Assembly (NCBI GenBank): GCA_944331955.1
Contig: CALVIY010000007.1
Location: forward strand, 1 to 42,728
DNA length: 42,728 bases
Direction: 5' to 3'
Origin: an uncultured Bacilli bacterium
GTDB taxonomy: Bacteria > Bacillota_I > Bacilli_A > RF39 > UBA660
This document shows positions 3,676 to 21,460 of this stretch, piece after piece; positions within the stretch are counted from its first letter, which is position 1; each line of letters opens with the position of its first letter. A program made the position numbers and the translations under genes. Below the pieces are notes generated by a model, which saw only the letters and a program-made list of their open reading frames with translations, ran no database searches and was not told the DNA's origin.

Positions 3676-3705
3676 TTGAATTGTAATAGTATATTATGCT
3701 AATAT
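3676..3705 (+). promoter_or_regulatory. Promoter of leader cassette, copy 1
   Basis: TTGAAT at 3676-3681, 18-base spacer, TAATAT at 3700-3705 with TGC just before it (extended -10). The same 18-base spacing, TGN-TAATAT and a following TTAAGTTAA-type start region occur in copies 2 and 3. Confidence 0.65.
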
Positions 3706-3741
3706 TAAGTTAATAAAAATAAGAAAGAAGGTAAGAAATTT

Positions 3742-3798
3742 ATGAAAAGAAACGCCAGCATCCGTTTACAAGTAGTTACCTGGGGGGGGGCAGTTTAG
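3742..3798 (+). CDS. Leader peptide with G tract, copy 1 (short frame)
   Basis: This 18-codon frame starts at ATG 3742, eight bases after AGAAGGTAAG. It ends VVTWGGAV, followed by TAG TAG TAG. The 9-G run (3782-3790) lies in the Trp-Gly-Gly-Ala codons. With one G fewer the frame would continue as QFSSRISN and on through TFFHYDIRAG, stopping at TAA 3851-3853 inside the terminator stem. Copies 2 and 3 encode related peptides, which argues that the frame is translated. I see no function for the peptide itself. Its role is probably to place the ribosome. Confidence 0.6.
   Translation: MKRNASIRLQVVTWGGAV
3782..3790. repeat. Homopolymeric G tract (G9), copy 1
   Basis: Nine consecutive G in a genome of roughly 30% GC, inside a leader frame. 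Such runs are prone to slipped-strand mispairing, so length is expected to vary between cells. Nine places the leader in the short frame; eight or eleven would place it in the read-through frame. Confidence 0.8.
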
Positions 3799-3840
3799 TA
3801 GTAGAATAAGTAATAAAATTACTTTCTTTCATTATGATAT

Positions 3841-3871
3841 AAGAGCAGGATAATTATATTCTGTTCTTTTT
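3841..3871 (+). terminator. Attenuator-type terminator, copy 1
   Basis: AAGAGCAGGAT (3841-3851) pairs with ATTCTGTTCTT (3858-3868), two wobbles, followed by more T to 3871. It lies after the leader peptide and 35 bases before the surface-protein start, so it can only act on transcription of that gene. Confidence 0.7.
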
Positions 3872-3906
3872 AGTGTTAGAAAAAAATAGTGGAGGAGTAA
3901 TGAAAA

Positions 3907-5511
3907 ATGAATTTAAAGAAGAAAGAAAACATTGTAATAATAGTGATATTAGTAGTTGTGTTAATAGCGATAATAGGAGTAAGTTATGCAGCCTTTAGTT
4001 TTAGCAGGCAAGGTAGTGTTCCTAACAAGATTACAACAGGATCTATTACGATGACTTATGAAGAAAGTGATAATACTATAAAGTTAAGTAATGCACTACC
4101 TACTCGTGACGCAACAGGTACAACAAGATTAAAAGAAGGAGAGTACTTTGATTTTACAGTTAGTAGTGAAATAACAGGTGATGTTAATATCAACTATGAA
4201 GTGAGTGCAAAAGAAGTAGGGGAAGGAACCATAGATGGTTCTAATATTAAACTTTACTTAACTAAATTAAATGGGGAAGACGAAGAACAATTAATGACAC
4301 CTGAAGTGTATAATGAAGAAACTGACTCTAATGAATATACAGGACGTCCTGCAGGAGAGATGAGTTTATATACAAGTAGTATGAATGCAAGTGAATCTAA
4401 TGATTACAGATTAAGAATGTATGTGACTGAAGAGTACAATCCTCAAGGAGATGGAGGAGGCCTAACCTTTGCGGTTAAAGTAAACGTATATGGAAAAGCA
4501 GGGTTATCTATGGAAGACAGAATGATGAGAGTAGCAGGAAGTGAAGACTTTCATACTAATGAATATAAAAATAATATAACTAGTATAGTAACAAAAGATA
4601 ATACAATAATACCAGAAGGAGTAATAGAAAGTTGGGATATCTCAGAAAAACAAAATGGTAATGTAATAGCATATGTAGAAGACGATGGAACAGGGGTTGG
4701 AACCTATAAACTAACTTTAGGTGGAGAAGGTAAAATAGTTGCTAACTATAACATGAGTAGTTATTTTGAAGGCTTTTCCAATTTAACAACAATAGATTTA
4801 AGCAGTTTAGATACTAGTTTAGTTACGGATATGAGTTATATGCTCGCAGGCATTGGGGTACAAACTTTAAATTTAAGTAATTTTGACACTTCAAAAGTTA
4901 CTAATATGAGGTCAATATTTATGAAATGTAATAATCTTTTAGAATTAGATTTAAGTAATTTTGATACTTCGAAAGTTACTAATATGAGTAGAATGTTTTA
5001 TGACAATTCTAACTTGATAGAACTTGATTTAAGCAATTTTGATACTTCACAAGTTACAGATATGAGTTATATGTTTTATGTAACTTCTAATTTAACAGAG
5101 TTAGATTTAAGTAGTTTTGATACTTCGAAAGTTACTAATATGAGTGGAATGTTTGATGGAGCATATATGGAGCCTATGAAGTTAGAAAAAATTATTTTTG
5201 GTGAAAAATTTAATACCTCAAATGTAACTAATATGAGTAGAATGTTTTATGCTTGTGCTAATCTTCAAACTTTAGATTTAAGTGGTTTTGATACTTCAAA
5301 TGTAACTGATATGAGCATGATGTTTGTTAAGTGCGAAAAGCTAACTACCCTTAATTTAACAAGCTTTGACACGTCTAAAGTAACAAAATATAATGTAATG
5401 TTTCAAAACACTACAAATTTAACAGAAGTATTAGTAAAAAGAGATAAATGGAGTATATCATCTGCAGATATATTTAAAGGCAGTGGAGTAACTGATTTTA
5501 CTTATGTATAA
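3907..5511 (+). CDS. BspA-like repeat surface protein with SipW-type signal
   Basis: A 534-residue exported protein. Residues 1-30 form a lysine-rich start, a hydrophobic helix and a VSYAAFS cleavage region, as in TasA/CalY-type proteins cut by SipW signal peptidases. Residues about 35-200 resemble the TasA-like beta domain. From about residue 290 there are six or seven repeats built on LDLSNFDTSKVTNMS and MFY, the DUF285/BspA-like leucine-rich pattern. Such repeats occur on surface adhesins of gut bacteria and protists. No LPXTG or C-terminal anchor is visible; the chain ends TDFTYV. GGAGG precedes ATG 3907. Expression is likely controlled by the leader and attenuator at 3676-3871. An adhesin or antigen role is an inference. 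Confidence 0.85.
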   Translation: MNLKKKENIVIIVILVVVLIAIIGVSYAAFSFSRQGSVPNKITTGSITMTYEESDNTIKLSNALPTRDATGTTRLKEGEYFDFTVSSEITGDVNINYEVSAKEVGEGTIDGSNIKLYLTKLNGEDEEQLMTPEVYNEETDSNEYTGRPAGEMSLYTSSMNASESNDYRLRMYVTEEYNPQGDGGGLTFAVKVNVYGKAGLSMEDRMMRVAGSEDFHTNEYKNNITSIVTKDNTIIPEGVIESWDISEKQNGNVIAYVEDDGTGVGTYKLTLGGEGKIVANYNMSSYFEGFSNLTTIDLSSLDTSLVTDMSYMLAGIGVQTLNLSNFDTSKVTNMRSIFMKCNNLLELDLSNFDTSKVTNMSRMFYDNSNLIELDLSNFDTSQVTDMSYMFYVTSNLTELDLSSFDTSKVTNMSGMFDGAYMEPMKLEKIIFGEKFNTSNVTNMSRMFYACANLQTLDLSGFDTSNVTDMSMMFVKCEKLTTLNLTSFDTSKVTKYNVMFQNTTNLTEVLVKRDKWSISSADIFKGSGVTDFTYV

Positions 5512-11252: not shown

Positions 11253-11335
11253 GAAAGAGGGTAAAGTTATGAGAAAGCTATGTTTACAACATGTTACCGG
11301 GGGGCAGTTTAGTAGTAATTTAGTTACTTTCTTTC
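11253..11335 (+). promoter_or_regulatory. Leader RNA with ribosome-site sequestering pair, copy 2
   Basis: GAAAGAGGGTAA (11253-11264) can pair over 12 positions with TTACTTTCTTTC (11324-11335), with two G-U wobbles. The downstream arm is identical to copy 1. A small hairpin AGTAA-TTTAG-TTACT (11314-11328) uses part of it. Confidence 0.5.
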
Positions 11336-11355
11336 ATTATGACTTAAAAGAATAG
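11269..11355 (+). CDS. Leader peptide, copy 2 (read-through frame)
   Basis: This 28-codon frame begins MRKLCLQHVTGGQFSS and ends in VTFFHYDLKE. Its TAG at 11353-11355 lies inside the 5' arm of the terminator (11348-11356). The G run is only six (11299-11304) and is not preceded by the T found in copies 1 and 3, so no Trp codon is present. This copy is therefore fixed, or nearly so, in the frame I predict to allow expression. GAGGG lies upstream of ATG 11269. Confidence 0.65.
   Translation: MRKLCLQHVTGGQFSSNLVTFFHYDLKE
11299..11304. repeat. G tract (G6), copy 2
   Basis: Six G after CC. Shorter than the nine in copies 1 and 3, so slippage should be rarer. Six keeps the leader in the read-through frame. 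Confidence 0.75.
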
Positions 11356-11379
11356 AGTAGGTATATTCTATTCTTTTTT
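11348..11379 (+). terminator. Attenuator-type terminator, copy 2
   Basis: AAGAATAGA (11348-11356) pairs perfectly with TCTATTCTT (11367-11375), followed by TTTT. It sits between the leader peptide and the surface-protein gene. Confidence 0.75.
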
Positions 11380-11403: not shown

Positions 11404-13029
11404 ATGATGAAAAAAATATTATTAGAAACAAGTTTTAGTAAGATATATATGATAGTAATGATTATAATAACTCTATTAATATTAGGAGGCTACTTTTCTT
11501 ATGCTATGTTTACAGTAAGTAAGGAAAGAGGAAATGCAATAAGTATTGTAACTGGTAATTTAACATTTGATTTAAAGGTAGATGGTACTACAGGTAATAC
11601 TTTAACAGTAAAAGCTAATAGAAGTAGAGAATTTGAGGTAACTCTAACTAATCCTAATAATAGAACAGCAAGATTTAACTTTTATTATTTAGGAGATATT
11701 TCTAGTGAAGTAAATATAGGATATTTAGAAAGTGATGAATATAATAAAACTCCAGAAGCAGTTGGAGTTAATTTAGAAAAAAGTGGCTCTAGTGGAAGTA
11801 GTAATGTATATAGAATTTTAGTAGAAAATGAAAGTGATAATGATATTAGTATAGAACTAGGAGTAAGTGTAGGACTAGATTATAATGATTTAAGTCTAGA
11901 AGATAATGAACATTTATTTACAAAGATAGAACTTCCAAATGTTGTAGATCAGCTTCTTGTTACTAATAAAGTCCAAACAGAAAAAGATAATATGTTTAAT
12001 TATACTAGCAAGGGAGATATATATACAGATGCTACTAGTGGTACAATAAGTAATGATCCAGATTATGTGACAAATGGTTTATATAGTATGAATGATGAGG
12101 ATGGAATTAGTTATTATTATAGAGGTAATATAGAAAATAATAATGTGCAGTTTGGAGAATATGCAAGCGATTATTATGTATATAGCAATAATTTTAGATA
12201 TTTTCAAACTTTAGAATCTTGCCAAGAATATAATAGAAGTTGTAGTGAAAGTAATAGAGTAAAACTTGCAAGTGCAGGAGATAAAATGTACTGGAAAATA
12301 GTACGAGTAAATGGAGATGGCAGTTTAAGATTAATTTATAATGGAACAAGTCCTAATCCTGATAATAGTGATTTAGCTCATTTTTATGCAGTTGGAGCAT
12401 CACCATATAATTTAGAAGCTAATGATCCAAAATATGCAGGATATACTTATGATAGAAATACAAATGAAACAGATTCATTTATAAAAAAAGAAGTAGATAC
12501 TTGGTATAGTAATACTTTAGGAAATAGTAATTATGATAGTATGGTACAAAATGGTAGATTTTGTAGTGATAGTAGTGGGTATAAGTTAGGAACAGAGTAT
12601 GGCTTTAGTGGAGCAAATTATAATGTGTTTTCAAGTTTTGACAGATTAGCAATGGCTGGAGAAGGCATTTCATTTAGCAGACCGAATAGTCCAAGCTTAA
12701 TTTGTCCTGATACGGATGAAACATATGGAGGAAGTTATAATTTAAAAGCAGGTTTGATAACAGCAGATGAATTAGTATTAGCAGGAGAATCAATGCTTAT
12801 ATCAGGAAACAGCTATTTAAACATAGGAAGTTCTAACGTAGGTTATTGGAGTATGACACCTGCTGATTTTGATGGTGGTGATGTTGATATCTGGTATAAA
12901 GCTGAAATTTTAAATAATGGATATGTAAATTTCAACTATGCTATACGTCCACTTATTAATGTGACAACTGAAAATGGATTTACATCAGGAGATGGAACTA
13001 CTTCTTCACCTTATGTTATAGAAAGCTAG
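11404..13029 (+). CDS. SipW-type surface protein, paralogue A
   Basis: A 541-residue exported protein. The N-terminus MMKKILLETSFSKIYM leads into a hydrophobic helix ending LGGYFSYAMFTVS, a SipW/TasA-like signal. Residues about 45-185 form a TasA-like beta domain with TLTVKANRSREFEVTL. The second half is a C-type-lectin-like or DUF6273-like domain, with KMYWKIVRVNGDGSLRLIYNG near 285-305 and YWSMTPADFDG and IRPLINV near the end. Cysteine pairs occur (for example CQEYNRSC). The first 230 residues are almost identical to paralogue B at 19838, whereas the C-terminal domain diverges. No cell-wall sorting motif is visible. Expression is set by the leader at 11205-11379. Confidence 0.82.
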   Translation: MMKKILLETSFSKIYMIVMIIITLLILGGYFSYAMFTVSKERGNAISIVTGNLTFDLKVDGTTGNTLTVKANRSREFEVTLTNPNNRTARFNFYYLGDISSEVNIGYLESDEYNKTPEAVGVNLEKSGSSGSSNVYRILVENESDNDISIELGVSVGLDYNDLSLEDNEHLFTKIELPNVVDQLLVTNKVQTEKDNMFNYTSKGDIYTDATSGTISNDPDYVTNGLYSMNDEDGISYYYRGNIENNNVQFGEYASDYYVYSNNFRYFQTLESCQEYNRSCSESNRVKLASAGDKMYWKIVRVNGDGSLRLIYNGTSPNPDNSDLAHFYAVGASPYNLEANDPKYAGYTYDRNTNETDSFIKKEVDTWYSNTLGNSNYDSMVQNGRFCSDSSGYKLGTEYGFSGANYNVFSSFDRLAMAGEGISFSRPNSPSLICPDTDETYGGSYNLKAGLITADELVLAGESMLISGNSYLNIGSSNVGYWSMTPADFDGGDVDIWYKAEILNNGYVNFNYAIRPLINVTTENGFTSGDGTTSSPYVIES

Positions 13030-19700: not shown

Positions 19701-19748
19701 ATGGATACCAAATGTTTACAACACGTTACCTGGGGGGGGGCAGTTTAA
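19701..19748 (+). CDS. Leader peptide with G tract, copy 3 (short frame)
   Basis: This 15-codon frame reads MDTKCLQHVTWGGAV, then TAA TAG TAA. The 9-G run spans Trp-Gly-Gly-Ala. With one G fewer it would continue as QFNSNLVTFFH and stop at TAG 19792-19794, inside the 5' arm of the terminator. CLQHVT is shared with copy 2, and VTWGGAV with copy 1. Confidence 0.6.
   Translation: MDTKCLQHVTWGGAV
19732..19740. repeat. Homopolymeric G tract (G9), copy 3
   Basis: Nine G preceded by CCT and followed by CAGTTTA, as in copy 1. It is predicted to vary in length by slippage and is one G away from the read-through frame. Confidence 0.8.
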
Positions 19749-19787
19749 TAGTAATTTAGTTACTTTCTTTCATTGTGCAAGAAAAAG

Positions 19788-19813
19788 AGAATAGGATAAT
19801 TCTATTCTTTTTT
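19788..19813 (+). terminator. Attenuator-type terminator, copy 3
   Basis: AGAATAGGA (19788-19796) pairs with TTCTATTCT (19800-19808), one wobble and a three-base loop, followed by TTTTT. Confidence 0.7.
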
Positions 19814-19837: not shown

Positions 19838-21460
19838 ATGATGAAAAAATTATTATTGGAAACAAGTTTTAGTAAGATATATATGATTGTAATGATTATA
19901 ATAACTCTATTGATATTAGGAGGATACTTTTCATATGCCATGTTTACAGTAAGTAGGGAAAAAGGGAATGCAATAAGTATTGTAACTGGTAATTTAACAT
20001 ATGATTTAAAAGTAGATGGAGTTAAATCTAATACTTTAACTGTAAAAGCTAATAGAAGTAGAGAATTTGAGGTAACTCTAACTAATCCTAATAATATAAA
20101 AGCAAGATTTAACTTTTATTATTTAGGAGATATTTCTAGTGAAGTAAATATCGGATACTTAGAAAGTGATGGATATAATAAAACTCCGGAAGCAGTTGGC
20201 GTTAATTTAGAAAAAAGTGGCTCTAGTGGAAGTAGTAATGTATATAGAATTTTAGTAGAAAATGAAAGTGATAATGATATTAGTATAGAACTAGGAGTAA
20301 GTGTAGGACTAGATTATAATGATTTAAGTCTAGAAGATAATGAACATTTATTTACAAAGATAGAACTTCCAAATGTTGTAGATCAACTTCTTGTTACTAA
20401 TAAAGTTAAAACAGAAAAAGATAATATGTTTAATTATACTAGTAATGGAAATATATTTACGGATGTTACTAGTGGTAAAATAGAAAATGATCCAGATTAT
20501 GTGACAAATGGCTTATATAGTATGAATGATGAAGATGGAATAAGCTATTACTATAGAGGTAATATAGAAAATAATAATGTGCAATTTGGAGAGTATACAA
20601 GTGATTATTATGTATATAATTTATATGATTATGAAGATAGATATTTCCAAAGTTTAGAATCTTGTCAAGAATATAATTCAAGTTGTAGTGAAAGTAATAG
20701 AGTAAAGCTTGCAAGTGCAGGAGATAAGATGTACTGGAAAGTAGTTCGAGTAAATGGAGATGGTAGTTTAAGGTTAATATATAATGGAACAAGTCCTAAC
20801 CCTGATAATAGTGATATAGCCCATTCTTATGCAGTAGGAATAACACCATATAATATAGCATATAATGAGCCTAAATATACAGGATATACCTATGATAACG
20901 GAATAGATTCATTTATAAAAAAAGAAGTAGATACCTGGTATGAAAATGCTTTAGGGAACACTGTTTATGACAAAGTAATAAACAGTGGCCATTTCTGTAG
21001 TGATAGTAGTGGGTTTAAAAATGGAAATGAATTTGTTGGAGGAGTTAGTGGATATGAAGACTTATATGTGTATGCAATTTATGAAAGAATATCTATGTCT
21101 ATTGTTTCCTATGATAAACCAAACAGTCCAACCTTAATTTGCCCCGATACAAATGAAACATATGGAGGAAGTTATAGTCTAAAGGCAGGATTAATAACAA
21201 CCGATGAATTAGTATTAGCAGGAGGAGCGAGGGATATAGAGGGAAACGATTATTTAAAACCAATGGCAGGTCATTATTGGACTATGACACCCTCAGATTT
21301 TAATATTATTGGTAGGGCTTATGTTGGAATTATTTCAGATAGTGTAGATGTTCGTTTGTCTGGTAATACCAGTGGTGTTCGTCCGGTTATAAATGTTTCT
21401 ATAGATAATGGATTCACATCTGGAGACGGTACTTTGGAAAATCCTTATGTAATTTCTTAA
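19838..21460 (+). CDS. SipW-type surface protein, paralogue B
   Basis: A 540-residue paralogue of the protein at 11404. The start is ATG 19838 (MMKKLLLETSFSKIYM), after GAAGGGA; the same frame is open further upstream but runs through the terminator. Signal, TasA-like domain and central region are nearly identical to paralogue A for about 230 residues. The lectin-like C-terminal half shares landmarks (KMYWKVVRVNGDGSLRLIYNG, YWTMTPSDF, GVRPVINV) but differs between them, for example YVGIISDSVDVRLSGNTS. This is the pattern expected for a family with a constant export domain and variable ligand-binding face. It is under the leader at 19637-19813. Confidence 0.82.
   Translation: MMKKLLLETSFSKIYMIVMIIITLLILGGYFSYAMFTVSREKGNAISIVTGNLTYDLKVDGVKSNTLTVKANRSREFEVTLTNPNNIKARFNFYYLGDISSEVNIGYLESDGYNKTPEAVGVNLEKSGSSGSSNVYRILVENESDNDISIELGVSVGLDYNDLSLEDNEHLFTKIELPNVVDQLLVTNKVKTEKDNMFNYTSNGNIFTDVTSGKIENDPDYVTNGLYSMNDEDGISYYYRGNIENNNVQFGEYTSDYYVYNLYDYEDRYFQSLESCQEYNSSCSESNRVKLASAGDKMYWKVVRVNGDGSLRLIYNGTSPNPDNSDIAHSYAVGITPYNIAYNEPKYTGYTYDNGIDSFIKKEVDTWYENALGNTVYDKVINSGHFCSDSSGFKNGNEFVGGVSGYEDLYVYAIYERISMSIVSYDKPNSPTLICPDTNETYGGSYSLKAGLITTDELVLAGGARDIEGNDYLKPMAGHYWTMTPSDFNIIGRAYVGIISDSVDVRLSGNTSGVRPVINVSIDNGFTSGDGTLENPYVIS

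Follow-up and report, generated by a model that had tools for sequence, protein, structure and literature searches.

In an uncultured gut bacterium of the class Bacilli, a surface-protein gene is preceded by a promoter, a short leader open reading frame with a run of nine G residues, and an intrinsic terminator, all lying near the beginning of the window (the whole stretch of 42,728 nucleotides that was analysed). The arrangement raises the question of whether the number of G residues decides how far ribosomes translate the leader and, through the terminator, whether the surface-protein gene is transcribed. A first-pass annotation, made from the letters of this DNA and treating the arrangement as a single locus, proposed that it does. 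Here the locus is re-read and compared with its relatives, and the reading is weighed against its rivals. "ON" and "OFF" denote the predicted read-through into the surface-protein gene and the predicted termination before it, respectively.

Organization of the leader region

The features of the locus are as follows.

3676..3705, + strand: leader promoter by direct reading, TTGAAT (3676-3681), 15 nt, then TG, C and TAATAT as an extended -10 element (TGCTAATAT, 3697-3705)
3721..3734, + strand: leader Shine-Dalgarno region AAGAAAGAAGGTAA (AAGAAAGAAGG at 3721-3731), complementary to the CU segment at 3819-3830
3742..3798, + strand: leader peptide as assembled (nine G, predicted OFF form), MKRNASIRLQVVTWGGAV, from ATG 3742 to a TAG stop
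3782..3790, + strand: G tract of nine G, the putative length-variable switch (from the sequence and family comparison)
3791..3853, + strand: long frame past the tract with eight or 11 G (predicted ON), QFSSRISNKITFFHYDIRAG, with its stop TAA 3851-3853 in the hairpin
3819..3830, + strand: CU segment TTACTTTCTTTC with the core CTTTCTTT, able to pair with the leader Shine-Dalgarno sequence and less strongly with the Shine-Dalgarno region of the surface gene
3841..3871, + strand: intrinsic terminator, hairpin 3841-3868 (12 pairs, -12.1 kcal/mol) and T-rich tail
3891..3897, + strand: Shine-Dalgarno sequence of the surface gene, GGAGGAG, by direct reading
3907..5511, + strand: surface-protein gene of 534 aa from ATG 3907, with an N-terminal signal/TM segment and PARCEL (BspA-like, DUF285) repeats

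The positions that the first-pass annotation gave, among them that of the TAA at 3851-3853, all hold on re-reading of the sequence. Because the G run has nine bases, the leader stops at TAG 3796-3798, which is followed by two further TAG codons and lies 42 bases before the stem. Only one frame past the tract, that of eight or 11 G, reaches the terminator, where it ends at the TAA that closes the 5' arm of the hairpin; the early triple stop and the single long frame are thus both confirmed. With ten G the frame reads WGGGSLVVE and then stops. The tract lies inside the leader open reading frame, 116 nt 5' of the surface gene, and so is neither within the gene to be switched nor in a promoter spacer. 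A search against Rfam gave no match in the window to a known riboswitch, T-box or other leader.

Copies of the module within the genome and the genus

The combination of promoter, leader, G tract and terminator, hereafter the module, is not peculiar to this locus. The leader-region search matched 36 places in the 1.5 Mb genome, about 35 of them complete copies, a recurrence that far exceeds chance. The single locus described in the first-pass annotation is therefore real, but it is one of about 35 in its genome and belongs to a genus-wide family. Three copies, with tracts at 3782, 11299 and 19732, are found within the window, the latter two with the following features.

11269..11377, + strand: second copy, predicted ON, with leader ATG 11269, tract 11299-11304 and hairpin 11346-11377
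11404..13029, + strand: gene under the second copy, 541 aa, N-terminal TM segment
19701..19813, + strand: third copy, predicted OFF, with leader ATG 19701, tract 19732-19740 (nine G) and hairpin 19783-19813
19838..21460, + strand: gene under the third copy, 540 aa, N-terminal TM segment

The tract of the second copy consists of six G directly after ACC, the preceding T being absent, and its open frame MRKLCLQHVTGGQFSSNLVTFFHYDLKE ends at a stop in the hairpin (11353-11355). The leaders of the family share the consensus M..LCLQHVTWGG with the long frame QFNSKIVTFFHYVTKRE, and a promoter consensus TTG ... TGNTAATATTAAG is common to 65 of 130 family copies. Genes 3' of nearly every module encode proteins that are about 450-650 aa long and carry a hydrophobic signal at the N-terminus, and where enough downstream sequence is present, all modules precede genes with an N-terminal signal/TM segment, with the sole exception of L027 described below. 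Predicted ON copies in the source genome are C13:24482 and C1:20895 (eight G each) and the second copy of the window; C47:4373, with ten G and an alternative late stop, is predicted ON by its geometry. C12:22086 has eight G, yet a stop codon occurs earlier in its leader.

Runs of at least eight G are almost confined to the module, 31 of the 33 in the whole genome lying inside module leaders. The two others are at C4:12292 and C87:496. At the former (L252; G000:C4:12292, - strand), eight G are found in a leader-like open reading frame, MNVYNMLHGGG..., before a different gene, with a weak match to the model. At the latter (L253:496-504; G000:C87), nine G are located about 10 bases 5' of the ATG of another gene, outside any leader, on a contig that may be foreign to the genome.

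The first-pass annotation had pointed to related genomes as the place to look for the leader pattern, and it is indeed present across Candidatus Onthousia, a genus of uncultured gut Bacilli: the covariance model R1, run on one genome per species, detected it in 34 of the 35 species and gave at least 390 matches in the genus. A pattern scan likewise identified uncultured Bacilli MAGs as hosts, among them Candidatus Onthousia excrementipullorum. Searches with the RNA model and stricter filters detected no module in 40 further genera of the family, nor outside the genus in 295 genomes of the class; distant relatives of the module may escape detection under these filters. Blast matches in three other families (G020, G025 and G026) are probably low-complexity G matches. 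IMG/VR contained no match to the module pattern, and no phage association was seen there.

Reading frames in 130 copies

The frames were compared in 35 copies from the source genome and 95 from relatives, five of 100 relative loci having been left out as showing no recognisable tract by the criteria of the script; these 130 copies are related to each other, and the counts below are not independent trials. In 127 copies, the leader ATG and the tract share a reading frame. All 130 copies have one uninterrupted frame between the tract and the terminator, the one containing ACT TTC TTT, and in 129 this frame ends within the hairpin, for the most part 7-11 nt into its 5' arm. The remaining two frames both terminate 20 nt or more ahead of the hairpin in 123 of the copies, as against 41 expected when the codons of the ON frame are shuffled with that frame kept open. 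Insertions between the tract and the terminator mostly preserve the ON frame (51/54/63 nt). On this comparison, indels and sequence changes appear to be accepted in such a way as to keep one frame open and two closed. The hairpin is found in every copy in 82 different sequences, one of its pairs being switched on both sides (C-G in 61 copies, T-A in 65). Codon-position variation in the long peptide displays no third-position excess, so that what appears to be conserved is that the frame stays open, and not the sequence of the peptide. RNAalifold on the family detected no conserved fold apart from the terminator and weak local stems. In some relatives (L134, L142, L145, L147, L152, L160 and L161), leaders are extended at the 5' side by 24-base in-frame repeats encoding QFWGKLIR-like units.

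Variation of the tract length

Tract lengths range from 5 to 11, each being one consensus value from a draft MAG, with one MAG per species; nine G is the commonest (74/130). In 10 of 24 pairs with near-identical flanks, the tract length differs. L123 (nine G, predicted OFF) and L135 (11 G, predicted ON) are identical over 1,242 bases, in which the tract is the sole difference; this pair could stem from mis-binned or recently transferred DNA, and the tract difference stands either way. Fewer than one third of the copies, 19 of 130, are predicted to be ON and unblocked. The predicted state is fixed in some copies, by an interruption of the tract in L083, L097, L107 and L154 and by a stop 5' of the tract in L098, L099 and L161. 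L027 (C8; L027:537-711 / L255) has a broken tract, TGTGGGGGC, and an uninterrupted leader right through the hairpin, and the gene 3' of it (463 aa) is different from the others, without a surface signal or a known family. This should be the form expected of a locked-ON module, a natural control.

Proposed mechanism

To judge from its sequence organization, the module very probably represents an attenuator of transcription that is phase-variable and depends on ribosomes, and about 35 such modules are present in the genome. Translation of the leader peptide would begin at the promoter-proximal start and proceed into the tract of about nine G, which would gain or lose bases by replication slippage. 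With nine or ten G, the ribosome would stop within about 20 bases and leave, upon which the hairpin would form and transcription would end before the surface gene. With eight or 11 G, the frame would remain open up to the stop in the 5' arm, where the ribosome would prevent formation of the hairpin to let RNA polymerase read through to the surface gene. The module, its frames, their conservation and the tract differences between otherwise identical loci are observed in the genomes, and the slippage, the blocking of the hairpin by the ribosome and the outcome for expression are modelled on the proven pil1 system described below. The first-pass claim that the leader frame, set by tract length, gates the terminator gains strong comparative support from the frames, the stops and the tract variation. 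Only one of the two one-G changes opens the leader frame, since the ten-G frame stops early.

Relation to known systems

In the poly-G/poly-C contingency loci of Campylobacter, Neisseria and Helicobacter, slippage at a homopolymer switches surface structures on and off. Their tract belongs to the gene that is switched, lying in its coding sequence or its promoter, whereas that of Onthousia is in a separate leader gene, presumably acting through a terminator. In leader attenuators of the trp type, the position of the ribosome on the leader decides whether the terminator forms. In the Onthousia module, unlike trp, this position is proposed to be set by the tract length in DNA instead of the supply of charged tRNA, and no antiterminator is seen.

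Transcription attenuators with a leader peptide such as trp have been discussed along with the closest precedent, pil1 and pil3 of Streptococcus gallolyticus UCN34, in which the number of GCAGA repeats sets the leader length and brings about phase variation of pili (Danne et al., 2014; PMC3894217). It has been experimentally proven for pil1 that translation of a short leader ends 39 bp short of the hairpin, and that a long one ends in or past the hairpin, with a rise in transcription (PMC3894217). In both systems, a leader gene containing a repeat prone to slippage is followed by an intrinsic terminator and then by surface genes; in both, the OFF stop is well before the hairpin (39 bp in pil1, 42 bases at the present locus) and the ON stop in or past it; and, as would be expected of a pil1-type leader, repeat numbers differ between otherwise identical loci of Onthousia (nine versus 11 G in 1,242 identical bases). 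On the other hand, pil1/pil3 use a pentanucleotide (22 copies at pil1) at two loci of one genome, whereas Onthousia has a homopolymer of about nine G at about 35 loci, genus-wide, preceding unrelated surface proteins, and no sequence relation to pil1/pil3 has been noted. The Onthousia leader would thus work like that of pil1 but is a different leader family, built on a G homopolymer and not on GCAGA.

Accordingly, the idea in the first-pass annotation that gating of transcription by a phase-variable repeat through a leader peptide would be new does not hold in kind, as pil1/pil3 gate in this way (PMC3894217). What is new in Onthousia is the use of a homopolymer, the scale, with dozens of independent switches in each genome, and the restriction to a single genus. 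No second precedent for homopolymer leader attenuators beyond Danne et al. was found in the literature covered, to which most subscription papers do not belong. A mechanism described at two pilus loci in a single streptococcus would here have become a genome-wide, homopolymer-built system, by which the surface proteins of a 1.5 Mb genome could take billions of ON/OFF combinations. Since the tract length in leader DNA would give the state directly, metagenomes could serve to predict which surface repertoire uncultured gut bacteria express, and culture would not be needed to test what part phase variation plays in gut commensals.

The CU segment and alternative explanations

The near-invariance of CTTTCTTT and of TTTACA..ATGTTACC is not accounted for by the attenuator model alone. 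The CTTTCTTT core is present in 130 of 130 copies, all of which were anchored on it in the analysis, and is kept even at wobble positions. The CU segment can form 12 pairs with the leader Shine-Dalgarno region (mean -12.5 kcal/mol versus -6.9 for shuffled sequences) and fewer with the ribosome binding site (RBS) region of the surface gene (-10.4 kcal/mol versus -6.8 for shuffled sequences and -7.8 for the RBS of other genes), and GTAA occurs in 86 of 108 surface-gene RBS regions but in only three of 27 of other genes. This complementarity suggests a second, translational layer, weakly favoured by modelling of RBS accessibility (0.20 in OFF, 0.28 in ON and 0.27 with the CU segment shuffled, a weak difference). 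It is conceivable, and proposed here tentatively, that the coat of about 35 surface genes under independent G-tract attenuators is doubly locked, by the terminator and by a CU segment that hides the surface-gene RBS when leader ribosomes fall short. That translation is the main control point, the segment at 3819-3830 hiding the surface-gene RBS unless covered by leader ribosomes and the hairpin mattering less, is unlikely: the universal core, the pairing with the surface RBS and the enrichment of GTAA speak for it, but the modelled difference is small, the segment pairs better still with the leader's own Shine-Dalgarno sequence, and such a model has no need of a stop inside the hairpin.

Alternatively, the ribosome or RNA polymerase might slip on the G run during expression, the DNA being unchanged; each cell would then produce long leaders and read-through transcripts in a small, constant proportion. 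Runs of nine to ten G are plausible substrates for such slippage too, the long frame requiring +1 from nine G and -1 from ten; that the tract length in DNA differs among copies with identical flanks, and that some states are fixed by an interruption or an upstream stop, makes this improbable as the main explanation, although it may contribute in a minor way. It is quite improbable that the leader is a recombination platform for swapping of surface genes, with the G tract targeted by a tyrosine-recombinase element and the frame features incidental. Tandem arrays of modules (C47 and C23) and an element or palindromic scar directly after the tract in several species would fit this, but it leaves unexplained the in-frame ATG, the fact that one frame is open while the two others stop early, and the stop in the hairpin; moreover, the scar is found in few copies, and the frame is still open across it in L150, as read by hand. 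An ordinary amino-acid-responsive attenuator, in which the Trp and Gly codons of WGG beside the terminator sense charged tRNA, is hardly credible, as no conserved antiterminator was found and it is tract length, not codon content, that varies; assignment to the leader attenuators of amino-acid biosynthesis was rejected, the genes downstream encoding surface proteins.

Elements adjoining the tract

Directly 3' of the leader G tract at L254:4394-5050 (G000:C60), and also at L258, L262, L265, L272 and L273, an element is found with the end sequence TTTTTATCCTTAAGCATAAAA and hairpin-like TTTTATGCCCAT repeats, followed in L254 by a truncated gene for an XerD-like tyrosine recombinase. The element may target G runs, since in L265, from another species, it adjoins a G run near a tRNA-like sequence. 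The near-palindrome TTTTTATCCTTAAGCATAAAA occurs alone in the leaders of several species (L150, L259, L263, L264, L268, L269, L270, L275 and L279), where in many copies the post-tract sequence is repeated behind it, as GGCAGTTT or in similar form, resembling the scar of an element of the L254 type.
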